Shown: positions 24,634 to 29,160 of the stretch, piece by piece
Position numbering within the stretch: the first letter of the stretch is position 1
How the letters are laid out: each line of letters starts with the position of its first letter
Assembly (NCBI GenBank): GCA_947175575.1
Contig: CAMWNG010000016.1
Location: forward strand, 1 to 33,128
Source: an uncultured Bacteroidales bacterium
GTDB taxonomy: Bacteria; Bacteroidota; Bacteroidia; Bacteroidales; Muribaculaceae
DNA length: 33,128 nt
Direction of reading: 5' to 3'
Notes under the pieces: model-generated
Database searches by the model: none
Seen by the model: the letters and a program-made list of their open reading frames with translations, nothing else
Told to the model about the DNA's origin: nothing
Made by a program: the position numbers and the translations under genes

Positions 24634-25422
24634 ATGGCTCCTGTACGTCCAAAGAAGTCACTCGGACAGCATTTTCTCACTGATCTCGGTGTGGCCCGGC
24701 GAATAGCGGCGGTCATCGATGACTGCCCTGGCTTGCCTGTTGTGGAAGTGGGACCCGGTACAGGAGTGCTCACACAGTTTTTGCTCGAGGCCGGACGGGA
24801 TCTCACCGTGGTTGAACTCGATCATGAGAGTGTGGAATATCTTCAGGCTGGAAATGTAGCCGGATTAAAACCTGAACGTATAGTCGAAGCTGATTTTCTG
24901 AAACTTGACCTTCCCGCTCTGACCGATGGACGCAAGATGTGCCTTATAGGAAATTATCCCTATAATATCTCGTCGCAGATTTTTTTCAAGGTGCTGGATT
25001 GCCATGACACTGTGGAAGAGTGTGCCGGAATGTTGCAACGCGAGGTTGCCGAACGCATCTGTGCCCCGGAAGGTTCCAAAACAAGAGGAATTCTGAGCGT
25101 GCTGCTTCAGGTGTGGTACTCTTGTGAGTATCTTTTCACAGTGTCGGAGGGCGTGTTCAATCCGCCTCCGAAGGTCAAGAGCGGAGTAATTCGGCTGCGT
25201 CGCAACGATGTGACCGATCCGGGCTGCGATTTCACCCTTATGCGGCTCGTGGTAAAGACAACATTCGGTCAGCGCCGCAAGACAATCCGTAATTCAGCCC
25301 GTTCGTTGCTCCGTCCGGGAGCCGTGTTCCCTGCCGAATGTCCTCTCGGAGCGATGCGTCCCGAGCAACTCACGGTGGCACAATTCGTTGAACTCACAAA
25401 TATAATAGCCGCACACAGATGA
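24634..25422 (+). CDS. rsmA: 16S rRNA (adenine1518/1519-N6) dimethyltransferase
   Basis: KsgA/RsmA dimethylates two adjacent adenines in the helix 45 loop of 16S rRNA late in 30S assembly. KKSLGQHFLTD at residues 7-17 is the N-terminal clamp. SAM motif I is VVEVGPGTGVLTQF at 36-49, the catalytic motif is GNYPYNISSQIFFK near residue 106, and VFNPPPKVKSGVIRL follows. NYPY replaces the usual NLPY, which keeps the catalytic N-x-P-Y pattern. Length 262 aa is standard. It starts 16 bases after the Na/Pi gene, and its stop overlaps the mgtE start by 4 bases (ATGA). Confidence 0.96.
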   Translation: MAPVRPKKSLGQHFLTDLGVARRIAAVIDDCPGLPVVEVGPGTGVLTQFLLEAGRDLTVVELDHESVEYLQAGNVAGLKPERIVEADFLKLDLPALTDGRKMCLIGNYPYNISSQIFFKVLDCHDTVEECAGMLQREVAERICAPEGSKTRGILSVLLQVWYSCEYLFTVSEGVFNPPPKVKSGVIRLRRNDVTDPGCDFTLMRLVVKTTFGQRRKTIRNSARSLLRPGAVFPAECPLGAMRPEQLTVAQFVELTNIIAAHR

Positions 25423-26786
25423 AAGATTTTACTCCGGAATATCTTGAACACATGCGCGGCGTTATAAAAGCGCACGACGCCGAGCAGGCCAGAGAACTGC
25501 TGCAGGACCTTCACCCAGCCGACATCGCCGAGCTTTACCAGAGTCTTGAACTCGAGGAAGCCGAATTCCTTTACGAACTTCTGGACGAGGAGACAGCCGC
25601 CGATGTGCTCATGGAGCTGGACGAGGATGACCGTCTCAAACTCCTGGAGGACATGCCTTCCGAGGAGATTGCCAAACAGATCGAACACCTCGATACGGAC
25701 GATGCCGTGGATATCATCCAGCAACTTGACCGCGAAGAGCGCGACGAGGTGCTGTCTCACATCGACGACGTGGAACAGGCAGGCGACATCATTGACCTGC
25801 TGAAATATGACGAAGACACCGCCGGCGGTCTTATGGGCACGGAGATGATCGTGGTGAACGAGAACATGTCCATGCCGGAGTGTATCAAGGAAATGCGTAT
25901 GCAGGCCGAGGAAATTGACGAGATATATTATGTTTATGTCGTCGATGATGACCAGAAGCTTTGCGGTATTTTTCCGTTACAGAAGATGATAACTCATCCA
26001 TCTGTGTCGAAAATCAAGCATGTGATGGATACCGATCCGGTGTCGGTCAAGGCTGATACTCCAATCGACGAAGTGGCTCTTGATTTCGAGAAATATGACC
26101 TCGTGGCCATGCCCGTCGTGGACAGCATCGGGCGTCTTCTGGGTCGTATTACGGTCGATGACGTCATGGACCAGGTGCGTGAGTCTTCTGAACGCGACTA
26201 TCAGCTGGCATCAGGTCTGTCGAGCGATGTCGATGCTGACGACTCTATTCTGGCGCAGACCAAGGCTCGTATTCCCTGGCTTCTTATAGGCATTGCTTCA
26301 GGTATTCTCGCCTCTATAATACTCGGAGGTTTTGAGGATCAGCTGCATGCTGTCACAGCTCTCGCACTCTTTATTCCGATCATAGGCGGTACGGGCGGTA
26401 ATGTTGGTGTGCAGGCGTCCGCTATCGTGGTACAAGGTCTGGCGAACGGCTCGCTGAATATCGGACAGTTCACCAAGCAACTCGGCCGCGAGTTGCTTAT
26501 AGGCCTGCTGAACGCTTCGGTGCTATCGGGAGTGATATTGTGCTACAATCTCATCGTTCTGCCCGGACAACTGGCTGTGACGCTCTCTGTGGCATGTTCG
26601 CTATTCGTGGTGGTGCTCTTCGCCACACTTTTAGGGACATTTGTACCTCTTACTCTGGAGAAGCTTAAAATCAATCCGGCTCTGGCCACCGGCCCGTTCA
26701 TTCAGATTTCGAACGACATTATGGGCCTGCTCATCTATGTCTGGGTTTCCGGTTTATTCCTCAGCCTGTTTGCTCCTGGAATCTGA
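25419..26786 (+). CDS. mgtE: Magnesium transporter MgtE
   Basis: Mg2+ channel of the inner membrane, 455 aa, with the full three-part plan. Residues 1-130 are the acidic superhelical N domain (LHPADIAELYQSLELEEAEF and repeated L-x-D-D steps). About 135-255 is a pair of CBS domains (GGLMGTEMIVVNENMS, VKADTPIDEVALDFEKYDLVAMPVVD, GRITVDDVMDQ). About 275-455 holds five membrane helices with GGTGGNVGVQASAIVVQGLA and the pore-lining aspartate in SNDIMGLLIYV. The cytosolic domains sense Mg2+ and close the pore. Its first codon overlaps the rsmA stop. It ends just left of the repeat copy at 26829. Confidence 0.95.
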   Translation: MKDFTPEYLEHMRGVIKAHDAEQARELLQDLHPADIAELYQSLELEEAEFLYELLDEETAADVLMELDEDDRLKLLEDMPSEEIAKQIEHLDTDDAVDIIQQLDREERDEVLSHIDDVEQAGDIIDLLKYDEDTAGGLMGTEMIVVNENMSMPECIKEMRMQAEEIDEIYYVYVVDDDQKLCGIFPLQKMITHPSVSKIKHVMDTDPVSVKADTPIDEVALDFEKYDLVAMPVVDSIGRLLGRITVDDVMDQVRESSERDYQLASGLSSDVDADDSILAQTKARIPWLLIGIASGILASIILGGFEDQLHAVTALALFIPIIGGTGGNVGVQASAIVVQGLANGSLNIGQFTKQLGRELLIGLLNASVLSGVILCYNLIVLPGQLAVTLSVACSLFVVVLFATLLGTFVPLTLEKLKINPALATGPFIQISNDIMGLLIYVWVSGLFLSLFAPGI

Positions 26787-26824: not shown

Positions 26825-26866
26825 CAACAGTCTTATTTCAACAGTTTTGTCAAAATAAGACTGTTG
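26825..26866. repeat. 14-bp inverted repeat between convergent mgtE and the ATPase gene
   Basis: CAACAGTCTTATTT (26825-26838) pairs with AAATAAGACTGTTG (26853-26866). It could act as a two-way terminator for the convergent genes; it is also the palindrome shared with the copy at 28390, where only 10 bp of each arm are kept. Confidence 0.6.
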
Positions 26867-26945
26867 CAACCATACTTATTTTTACATTTTTGTCAAAATA
26901 AGCTCGTTTGACCCGTTTTTACGTGCTTATTTTACGCTTTGGATA
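26829..26945. repeat. 117-bp direct repeat, copy A
   Basis: Aligned by eye to 28390-28506 over 117 bases with 7 differences and no gaps. It includes the last 19 bases of the ATPase gene (IQSVK and stop). It also has two successive 28-base units of the form CTTATTT-N14-AAATAAG (starting near 26832 and 26875) and a further CTTATTTTACGC half-unit near 26926. The boundary at 26945 lies inside the ATPase coding sequence. Confidence 0.85.
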
Positions 26946-28351
26946 CCCTGGGTGTAAGTGTAGAGTGCTGTCGGAACAAAATGTAAAGAGCCACACTCCA
27001 TGGATCTTGCACCGGTTTCAGTGATTGAGGTTACAACCGCACGTGACAAACTGTTTGTAGACATAAAAGTCAGCAAAGATTTCAGCTCGGAGGGCTGTTT
27101 GAAGTATCTGTCACTCCATTTTATTTCCAAAGCTCTGTCGGGTTTTTGAGAGAGCGAGTCAAGTCTTACAAAATCGACTTCACCGTTTTGACGTCCTTTT
27201 TTCCAGTTGGCATAATACAGATCTTCGGTTCTCTGGCAGAATTGACTGAAAACAGCTGTTTCTACAAGATGATTGAAAGCGGTATCCGATTGCCCGACAG
27301 GTGAAAAAACAGCAGCGAATACCGATGGATTGGTCACATAGATTTTAAATGTAGTAACCCTTTGGAATCGTCTTGCATTTTCATCGACTTTATGAAGCAC
27401 CTTGATTAAGAAAGCTGATTCAAGATAATCTATATATTTTCTGATGGTTTCTTTCCTTATTCCAGATTCCTTGGATAGATCTTCGTATGAAAATTCTTCG
27501 CCTGTACGGAAAACTATATGGATAAATAGCCTGTAAAGATCCCTTGTATCGCCTATTCCATATAGACCGGGTAAATCTTTGAGCAGTACTTTATCCACTA
27601 TGTCTTCTTTTATGTAACGTCCGGGATTCCGGCGTAGCTGTAGAGAATATACCACTTCCGGATAGCCACCGAAGTTGATGTAATCTATGAATTTTTCATT
27701 CAGTTTAGTGATGTCTACAGCGTCATAACCTTGTGTTTCTTTTCCGAACCATTCGACTTTTGCAGGGATTACTAAATTTTCCTCACCTACCATAGAGAGA
27801 TATTCGCAGAAAAGTAAAGGAGGAAGCGAGAAGTGAGTGAACCGTCCTGCACCGCTTTCTATAGACTTCATTTTCAATGCCGCCGCGGCTGACCCTGAAG
27901 CTATAAACCGTATATTTCTACGGGTGTCACACAAGACTTTGAGATGGGTTTCCCAATCCTTCAGATATTGGATTTCATCGAAAAATACATAAAAAATACC
28001 ATCTGAGCCATCAGATTTTGCGGCTTTCATAAGCATGTCAACCATATTTTCAAGACTCATCCCACTATAAATGGGTGCGTCCACGCTCAGATAAAGAATT
28101 TTACGTTGTGGTACTCCCGAGTCAAGCAATTCTTTGATAGTGTGGAACATAAGCACGGTCTTGCCTACACGGCGCGGTCCTAACAGAATCACGCTGCGTC
28201 CTTTCGGCAATGATGATACCAGTTCCAAAAACGGCTTGAGGAGCATGCGGGGCTTCATTATATCAAAATCCTCAAAAATTGAACCGGAACTCCACCATGG
28301 ATTATCCACCACCATTCTTCTTAGTATCTGTTCTTCCGGAAAGTTTACCAT
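26927..28351 (-). CDS. AAA+ ATPase with DUF4143 C-terminal domain
   Basis: A 474-residue ATPase of a family that is abundant in Bacteroidales and whose biological role is unsettled. Walker A is GPRRVGKT at residues 58-65 and Walker B is FYVFFDEIQ at 120-128; FIASGSAAAALK carries the sensor-type serine near 152. A winged-helix-like segment (SYEDLSKESGIRKETIRKYI) is at 288-307. The C-terminal domain has the PD-(D/E)xK-like set E364, D393 (NGEVDFV) and E409-x-K411 (ALEIKWSD). It is bracketed by 117-bp direct repeats, and its last codons lie in one of them. It is lower in GC than its neighbours (21 of 60 G+C at 27361-27420, against 38 of 60 at 29581-29640), which suggests acquisition by transfer. 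Alternative roles include a toxin-antitoxin-like or defence component. Confidence 0.88.
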   Translation of the reverse strand: MVNFPEEQILRRMVVDNPWWSSGSIFEDFDIMKPRMLLKPFLELVSSLPKGRSVILLGPRRVGKTVLMFHTIKELLDSGVPQRKILYLSVDAPIYSGMSLENMVDMLMKAAKSDGSDGIFYVFFDEIQYLKDWETHLKVLCDTRRNIRFIASGSAAAALKMKSIESGAGRFTHFSLPPLLFCEYLSMVGEENLVIPAKVEWFGKETQGYDAVDITKLNEKFIDYINFGGYPEVVYSLQLRRNPGRYIKEDIVDKVLLKDLPGLYGIGDTRDLYRLFIHIVFRTGEEFSYEDLSKESGIRKETIRKYIDYLESAFLIKVLHKVDENARRFQRVTTFKIYVTNPSVFAAVFSPVGQSDTAFNHLVETAVFSQFCQRTEDLYYANWKKGRQNGEVDFVRLDSLSQKPDRALEIKWSDRYFKQPSELKSLLTFMSTNSLSRAVVTSITETGARSMECGSLHFVPTALYTYTQGIQSVK

Positions 28352-28372
28352 ATATCAAAAGTTTTTATGGCA

Positions 28373-28402
28373 CAAAGATACAAATAAAAAGTCTTATTTC
28401 AA
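28373..28402 (-). promoter_or_regulatory. ATPase promoter with overlapping palindrome
   Basis: Minus strand: TTG (28400-28402), 19 bases, TATCTTTG (28373-28380). The -33 TTG lies between the arms of an inverted repeat (AGTCTTATTT 28390-28399 and AAATAAGACT 28414-28423), so a protein bound there would cover the promoter. The -33 half belongs to repeat copy B; the -7 half lies outside it. Confidence 0.6.
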
Positions 28403-28506
28403 CAATTTTGTCAAAATAAGACTGTTGCAACCATGCTTATTTTTACATTTTTGTCAAAATAAGCTTTCCTGACCCGTTTTTATGTGCTTATTTTACGCTT
28501 TGGATA
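28390..28506. repeat. 117-bp direct repeat, copy B
   Basis: Second copy of 26829-26945, in the same orientation, between the ATPase start and the 3' end of rnhA (stop at 28510). It keeps a 19-base fragment that matches the ATPase C-terminus plus stop although no gene now precedes it. It also has the same two CTTATTT-N14-AAATAAG units. Four of the seven differences are clustered around 28465-28468. Confidence 0.85.
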
Positions 28507-28509
28507 ACG

Positions 28510-29160
28510 TCATTTCCGGCCGAAGTCAGCCGGAATCTCCCCCCATTTTTCCGTATACCATTTCAAAATAGGATTTGGAATGCTGTGCGAGGCCATCCAT
28601 GCGTCGGCGCGTTCAAGAACCGCACGCAGGGGTGCATTGGCTTCAGTAGGTTGAAGTTTAGTGTTGCTGTGACCGCGGCGCAGCCAGCTGAGCGCTGTCT
28701 TTGAATCGGTATAGATGGGGGTGGAAGTGTCACCTTGCCGGGCAAGCAGCGCGGCTACATGGATCAGGGCGAGGTATTCGCCGATGTTGTTGGTGCCTCC
28801 CTCGTAGGGGCCTCCGTGGAATATTTCTGCGCCGTCGGCCACCCGGACACCGCGGTATTCCATCGGGCCGGGATTACGGCTGCATGCACCGTCGACGGCT
28901 ATAGCGTCGAGGCGTATGCCCGGAATGGTGGTATAATCCGGTTTCTGCCGGTCCTTCATTTTGCGGGCGAGTTCGCGGGCGAAGTTGAGGTGTTCGCGGG
29001 GATCGCCCCGGAAGGCTTCCGTTGCATCATCCTGAGATGTGAAGGCTTTATATTTCGCTTCGGGATAGCCTTCAACCTGCTCGCGACATTCTTCCCAACT
29101 GTCGTAGATGCCGGGAGCACGGCCTTCCCAGACCACATAGAATTTTCGTGTCGCTTTCAT
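28510..29160 (-). CDS. rnhA: Ribonuclease HI with N-terminal viroplasmin-like RNA:DNA-binding domain
   Basis: Cuts the RNA strand of RNA-DNA hybrids (R-loops, Okazaki primers). Residues 1-50 (KFYVVWEGRAPGIYDSWEEC, YKAFTSQDDATEAF) are the small hybrid-binding domain also found in eukaryotic RNase H1. The catalytic domain follows, with acids D90 (IAVDGACSRNPGP), E128 (NNIGEYLALIHV), D152 (IYTDSKTA) and D212 (PADFGRK). All four are present. Length 216 aa suits the Bacteroidetes form. Its first base overlaps the stop of the upstream alanine-dehydrogenase-like gene, so translation is coupled. Its 3' end lies only 3 bases from repeat copy B. Confidence 0.93.
   Translation of the reverse strand: MKATRKFYVVWEGRAPGIYDSWEECREQVEGYPEAKYKAFTSQDDATEAFRGDPREHLNFARELARKMKDRQKPDYTTIPGIRLDAIAVDGACSRNPGPMEYRGVRVADGAEIFHGGPYEGGTNNIGEYLALIHVAALLARQGDTSTPIYTDSKTALSWLRRGHSNTKLQPTEANAPLRAVLERADAWMASHSIPNPILKWYTEKWGEIPADFGRK

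Follow-up and report, generated by a model that had tools for sequence, protein, structure and literature searches.

The window analyzed here, a 33,128-nt stretch of DNA from the 2.36-Mb draft genome of a gut bacterium, contains a gene for an AAA_14/DUF4143 ATPase that is located between mgtE and rnhA (Table 1); rnhA is followed by a gene with alanine dehydrogenase domains (ald). An initial annotation had described two 117-bp direct repeats around the ATPase gene, and this description was borne out. The copies, designated R, lie at 26829-26945 (copy A) and 28390-28506 (copy B) and align without gaps and with 7 differences. As had also been stated, both include the 3′ coding end of the ATPase: copy A covers the last codons and the stop codon of the gene, and the same 19 coding bases (TATCCAAAGCGTAAAATAA) recur in copy B, where they belong to no gene and the rnhA stop at 28510 is 3 bases away. 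A repeat finder extended the copies to 120 nt (the limits given in Table 1; 93%) and listed R as the sole direct-repeat family of at least 40 nt in the window. When the genome itself was searched with copy A, copy B was recovered (E = 9.2e-47), while the other five matches were the inverted arms of both copies and three short matches at chance level; no third full copy was found in this search. The repeat finder and the genome search ruled out a chance match as the origin of R, and a known RNA was ruled out since all four Rfam matches at E ≤ 1 fell under their gathering scores. The lower GC content that had been noted for the ATPase gene was confirmed as well (41.5%, against 52.2% for mgtE and 57.1% for rnhA); the whole window has 50.1% and the repeats have about 30%.

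Table 1. Features of the R-ATPase-R unit in the window and sites of the eight close units
Feature	Position	Strand	Basis or remark
mgtE, left neighbor	25419..26786	+	MgtE domains; pair ksgA-mgtE conserved in relatives
R, 3′ copy (copy A)	26826..26945	-	over last codons and stop of the ATPase
Second palindrome, copy A	26832..26859	.	pattern match, 2 mismatches
Core palindrome, copy A	26875..26902	.	pattern match, 0 mismatches
Half-site m1, copy A	26925..26936	-	CGTAAAATAAGC on gene strand; overlaps ATPase stop; alignment of 18 R copies
AAA_14 + DUF4143 ATPase, 474 aa	26927..28351	-	Pfam AAA_14 52-185, DUF4143 258-412
Putative Bacteroidota -7 box of ATPase promoter	28373..28380	-	TATCTTTG; starts 29 bases before ATG
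R, 5′ copy (copy B)	28387..28506	-	19 gene-less coding bases, 3 bases from rnhA stop
Second palindrome, copy B	28393..28420	.	pattern match, 1 mismatch; hairpin; overlaps -33 region of putative promoter
Core palindrome, copy B	28436..28463	.	pattern match, 0 mismatches; hairpin in fold
Half-site m1, copy B	28486..28497	-	sequence reading; alignment of 18 R copies
rnhA, right neighbor	28510..29160	-	RNase H domains; pair ald-rnhA conserved in relatives
Unit site, G000			between mgtE and rnhA
Unit site, G062 and G190			beside CNNM gene
Unit site, G036			beside comM-type gene
Unit site, G240 and G272			upstream of topA
Unit site, G262 and G235			beside gene for 922-aa protein

Read on the gene strand, R consists of a half-site m1 (TGTAAAATAAGC type), which in the 3′ copy sits over the stop codon, a first spacer of 23 to 24 nt, the core palindrome, a second spacer of 14 to 15 nt, and the second palindrome. 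R is an array of inverted half-sites, which the annotation had not described, with the core AAATAAG/CTTATTT, placed at the ATPase promoter and again over the stop codon. The -7 consensus of Bacteroidota promoters is TAnnTTTG, and the putative box of the ATPase gene is listed in Table 1. A single-strand DNA fold of copy B displayed two hairpins (z = -4.0). In all 16 copies of the core palindrome that were scored (of 18), the innermost two positions of the arms were mismatched, and no compensation was seen, a pattern more in keeping with protein half-sites than with a base-paired hairpin.

The Pfam matches of the ATPase to AAA_14 and DUF4143 (106.5 and 75.4 bits) were both above the curated cut-offs, and seven PADLOC models of the phage-defense candidate PDC-S01 matched the protein (best E = 6e-54, 181.5 bits). 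Pfam, NCBIfam, and PHROGs gave no transposase or recombinase identity for this ATPase, whose gene is the sole one in the unit. The residues G58-P-R-R, G63-K-T65, D125-E126, E391-V-D393, E409, and K411 are invariant in 23 homologues and represent what we take to be Walker A/B and PD-(D/E)XK-type motifs; the signature E391-V-D393 ... E409-x-K411 would mark a nuclease. The protein is predicted to be a STAND-like ATPase, and in its AlphaFold2 model (mean pLDDT, 89) we read a winged-helix-like segment at about residues 269 to 322. The protein differs from the archaeal STAND-like ATPases PABY2304 (2qen) and Sso1545 (2fna) and from the Cdc6/Orc1 initiators in its C-terminal part with the PD-(D/E)XK-type signature and in its putative sites, which lie at the promoter and the stop codon and not at a known origin. 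PDC-S01 belongs to the same AAA_14/DUF4143 protein family. In the excerpts available of its description, it is a fusion of an ATPase with a PD-(D/E)XK-type domain, as is the case here, and the fourth most common defense across prokaryotes, with most such defense candidates still awaiting validation (PMC12988326). Unlike what is seen here, the available portions of PDC-S01 accounts name no cognate repeats, bracketing, solo repeats, or empty sites, and the excerpts of the searched literature contained nothing on repeats at DUF4143, PDC-S01, or AAA_14 ATPase genes.

The repeat was then sought in relatives, as the annotation had proposed, and was found either together with the ATPase family or as a solo copy. 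The sample comprised 397 genomes of the family, mostly draft MAGs, with one genome per species. At E ≤ 1e-100, the ATPase matched in 24 of them with one match each; the annotation had also raised the prospect of several ATPases in tandem, and no such multi-copy site was present in these 24 genomes. Eight ATPases were at least 75% identical (G000, which is the window genome, G062, G036, G240, G272, G262, G235, and G190), and all eight genes had R on both sides, the 3′ copy of G036 running to the contig end. R was also present on both sides of the G453 ATPase (56%). In G190 (L135 3986-5451), the ATPase frame was split into two open frames with both R copies kept, and a second, different DUF4143 gene adjoined the broken ATPase. 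The eight close units occupied five kinds of site (Table 1), and the two same-genus genomes G000 and G036 held the unit at unrelated sites. For the 922-aa neighbor in G262 and G235, Pfam gave only carboxypeptidase-regulatory-like domains; a TonB-type receptor is our own reading.

The palindrome pattern occurred in 14 of the 397 genomes, nine of which hold the ATPase, and it was located at units or solo repeats apart from one match with 2 mismatches in G330; the reversed-pattern control gave none among the matches listed. This single G330 match (L390; G330:C1:117692-117719) lies in a genome without the ATPase and represents chance or an old remnant. A dispersed repeat of the REP or MITE type was ruled out by this distribution and by the two copies in the window genome. 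The ATPases of G000 and G036 were 81% identical, while the same pair showed 85% for mgtE, 72% for comM, and 67% for rnhA. As this value is in the ordinary range and the ATPase tree resolves same-site pairs only, recent transfer is not indicated, and the tree was discarded as a demonstration of transfer. The pairs that share a site (G240/G272, G262/G235, and perhaps G062/G190) point to a large share of vertical descent.

The eight units also allowed the two R copies of a unit to be compared. The first spacer was unit-specific and common to both copies: in 7 of 8 units, the closest match to a copy was its own partner (the exception being G235), and none of 5,000 random pairings reached the observed mean. 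In full-length comparisons of R, identity within a unit was 71 to 94%, against a median of 67% between copies from the same side of different units. By these alignments, the two R copies of a unit demonstrably evolve in concert.

Sites with one repeat and no ATPase, which the annotation had wanted to see, do exist, and two of them share their place with a full unit in a relative. At topA, where the full unit is present in G240 and G272, G296 carries one R and lacks the ATPase. The nucleotide identity of topA was 92.7% for G296-G240, 86.9% for G296-G272, and 86.3% for G240-G272. Since topA puts G296 nearest G240, with G272 outside, a single loss in G296 is the simplest history; by parsimony, this solo R would represent a derived loss and not a waiting target. 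In G043, a genome only 65% complete, one R without the ATPase lies 3′ of comM, where G036 has the full unit. Solo copies were also present in G064 and G367 in the gene neighborhood of the G453 unit, and these are not the same site, because another gene lies between.

A site with neither repeat nor ATPase was found in G221, in which bcp, encoding the peroxiredoxin, adjoins the CNNM gene; at this place G062 has R-ATPase-R. The flanking proteins of the two genomes are 95% (CNNM) and 93% (peroxiredoxin) identical. The complete lack of R in G221 would favor an insertion in G062, and such an insertion does not require a circle to enter at a repeat already in place. The junctions are blurred, with no exact ends or target duplication readable and about 80 extra bases left of R in G062. 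Presence and absence at corresponding sites were thus observed for G062 versus G221 and for G240 and G272 versus G296.

The R profile was absent from 21 other topA loci (other species of genus g6) and, in g1 genomes, from 28 other comM, 29 other mgtE, and 29 other rnhA loci, which disfavors a resident repeat awaiting a cassette. In the relatives, ksgA and mgtE were together in 29 of 29 loci, as were ald and rnhA in 29 of 29. The mgtE-rnhA junction, which the annotation had proposed to compare, was seen in none of these loci within the flank covered (at least 1.4 kb 3′ in 25 of 29 and 23 of 29 loci and less than 500 bases in two mgtE loci). If a solo R were the product of misassembly, the ATPase should persist on another contig. 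None of the DUF4143 genes checked in G296 (8 of 9), G043 (4 of 4), and G221 (2 of 2) was more than 25% identical to the ATPase, so that no displaced ATPase was found among them. A gene with a weak Y1/REP-transposase match was noticed 3′ of comM in G018 (L170:467-1387) and G001 (L172:913-1344). With this gene in two genomes, the unit in G036, and the solo R in G043, the comM intergene may be an insertion hotspot.

A wider scan covered the best 80 of 570 relatives from an 84,980-species collection, six of the 80 being close homologues. AAATAAG/CTTATTT was the most enriched 7-mer upstream of these homologues. The core was present upstream in 61 of 78 loci (16 of 219 control genes) and downstream in 32 of 76 (7 of 211 controls). 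At least two copies were found upstream in 45 of 78 loci (2 of 219), downstream in 24 of 76 (0 of 211), and on both sides in 18 of 74. Since only 24 of 76 homologues among these best 80 of 570 had at least two 3′ motifs, bracketing is no general need of the ATPase. A direct-repeat test placed 18 of the 75 testable loci (of 80) above the 95% level of 175 control genes and 14 of 75 above the corresponding level of cross-locus pairs; the highest control score, 139 for a single gene, was above every ATPase locus. Bracketing in all distant homologues was rejected on this basis.

An ATPase on an Acinetobacter plasmid (43%) displayed an upstream palindrome with two perfect 21-nt arms and the same core, and had the palindrome upstream only. 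Eight viral contigs were read, seven of which had upstream DNA. L342 to L345 (45 to 48%) carried AAATAAGATCAG and CTGATCTT upstream, L343 being the same as L345 there, and L340 carried the core once upstream; no motif was found upstream in L346 (46%) and L347 (41%). Phage or plasmid cargo was also considered: homologues occurred in 2 plasmid records, 1 weak phage record, and 9 viral contigs, and nothing of the kind was noticed in passing around the window unit. None of 21 other DUF4143 genes tested (of 27 loci) in the same genomes had at least two core copies upstream. The motif is tied to this ATPase subfamily.

Other DUF4143 genes were associated with repeats unrelated to R. At L316 (G062:C72), a gene of a third DUF4143 subfamily, a 72-nt repeat with 71 identical positions lies on both sides and holds 16 nt of the gene's own 3′ coding end, including the stop. 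A promoter palindrome is retained left of the left repeat, and the left flank also keeps the 3′ end, a remnant that reads as a lost first tandem copy. In the window genome, L319 (G000:C5) and L325 (G000:C23) are bracketed by iterons with AAAACGTG on both sides, and L363 (G272) has a palindrome twice upstream and once downstream. Among 53 other DUF4143 matches in ten genomes, of which 50 were examined and 48 were testable, a repeat score of at least 30 was reached by 4 of 48 and a score of at least 20 by 7 of 48, compared to 0 of 26 controls (Fisher p = 0.047 for scores of at least 20). With 7 of 48 genes at this level, bracketing is weak as a general rule for all DUF4143 genes. It is a doubtful, though conceivable, proposition that DUF4143 (PDC-S01) ATPases form a class of one-gene selfish or defense elements with subfamily-specific cognate repeats that the AAA+/PD-(D/E)XK-type protein itself would recognize and recombine at both of its ends, the window unit, L316, L319, L325, and L363 being instances of one mechanism. 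Direct iterons of the GATTGAAAAGTGTA, GGAAAAAGTGT, or TTGAAAACGTGG types were observed just 5′ of the start codon at L357, L360, L327, L356, and L359, which belong to other DUF4143 subfamilies.

The arrangement might be regulatory only. R would then be an operator for autoregulation whose 3′ copy arose by duplication, for example through a tandem duplication with loss of the first ATPase; the gene would be inherited vertically and often lost, its neighbors would differ through fluid gene order, and the unit would never move. Such a history would agree with R abutting the putative promoter, with the upstream motif being commoner than the downstream motif in the wider scan, with the upstream-only palindrome of the Acinetobacter plasmid, and with the same-site pairs. 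The topA and comM neighbors vary between species anyway, and the left flank of L316 retains a promoter palindrome together with 3′-end sequence of an apparent lost first copy. However, both flanks of the G221 empty site are conserved without a trace of R, the unit lies at unrelated sites in G000 and G036 despite their common genus, and its presence is patchy (24 of 397 genomes). We therefore regard a purely regulatory role as a possible but rather unlikely explanation. The window unit may have lost a tandem copy, and such a loss is better supported at L316.

The initial annotation had proposed a lost tandem copy or the integration of a circular cassette, and it had stated that a repeat occurring nowhere else, the same two-repeat arrangement in relatives with neutral divergence, and a lack of empty or multi-copy sites would speak against this idea. 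Because R occurs in relatives and solo sites and an empty site exist, the idea is not refuted in this way. In the cassette scheme, a circle of ATPase plus R would enter a resident R by site-specific or homologous recombination, give rise to R-ATPase-R, and exit again as a circle. Solo R sites would be its targets, the 3′ coding end lies within the repeats, as expected of a circle joined inside the tail of the gene, and a like anatomy with unrelated repeats is seen at L316 and L319. The proposal of the annotation is thus partly supported. However, the topA solo is better explained as a loss, G221 was empty without a resident R, a second ATPase of this kind was found in 0 of 24 genomes, and the unit contains no recombinase gene, which makes such integration improbable. 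Movement in trans by a single-strand Y1 transposase (IS200/IS605 or RAYT) that recognizes R hairpins would explain the imperfect hairpins at both ends in the same orientation, and palindromes flank IS608 according to the portion of the account available (PMC3116915). The weak Y1 match 3′ of comM in G018 and G001 occupies the place of the unit in G036. However, this gene stayed under the curated cut-offs for Y1_Tnp (E = 0.006 and 7e-4) and for NCBIfam REP_Tyr_transpos (E = 1e-6 and 1.6e-4), and Pfam gave nothing at 1e-5. No such gene was noticed inside any unit, the window unit lacks the TnpA (Y1/HUH) transposase of IS200/IS605, R is not dispersed, and the motif tracks the ATPase family across phyla. 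We consider a Y1 transposase in trans highly improbable. RAYT genes, in the excerpt available, are single-copy and flanked by their own palindromes, which vary by lineage and apparently coevolve with these genes (PMC3116915). The window unit resembles the RAYT/REPIN system as a single-copy gene flanked by its own palindromic sequences. It differs from this system in that the protein is an AAA_14/DUF4143 ATPase per Pfam and not a Y1 transposase, that R is undispersed with two copies in its own genome, and that the gene and both R copies are present or absent at corresponding sites.

On balance, we lean toward R-ATPase-R being a compact module of gain and loss that is bracketed by its own recognition arrays. 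R would be the recognition array of the ATPase, whose winged-helix part may bind TGTnAAAATAAGC-type half-sites. Because its putative promoter has half-sites over the -33 region, the ATPase is probably self-regulating. By comparison of genomes, the module occupies different intergenic sites depending on the lineage, and it would arrive or leave with both R copies, the direction being our deduction. Once in place, the direct copies exchange sequence with each other, as seen in 7 of 8 units, where the 5′ R most closely resembles the 3′ R of the same unit. Recombination between them may at times delete the ATPase and leave one solo R, the state observed at topA and comM; its reading as a loss would follow from topA parsimony. 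As the ATPase is of the PDC-S01 kind, phage defense is the likely payload, and R × R recombination could provide a cheap way to shed it.

Solo long terminal repeats (LTRs) are left by recombination between direct repeats. By analogy, the gain-and-loss module would resemble LTR elements in that full unit, solo repeat, and empty site coexist and the repeats of one unit evolve in concert. It differs in that the unit holds a single gene, for an AAA_14/DUF4143 ATPase, and repeats that are identical at insertion are a feature of the LTR side. The motif, traced from Bacteroidota to an Acinetobacter plasmid, constitutes a direct handle on what the ATPase binds, and comparing the full, solo, and empty states offers a natural approach to the gain and shedding of such genes. 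The like anatomy with unrelated repeats at some other DUF4143 genes suggests a rule that is testable genome by genome.

The second spacer of R was also found in inverted form. In G036:C55 (L090), the two R copies have second spacers that are reverse complements of each other (93%), and this spacer is likewise inverted between the 3′ R of G062 and the 5′ R of G190 (80%); 0 of 3,060 shuffles gave such a match at 75% or more. Inversion between inverted half-sites seems to occur.
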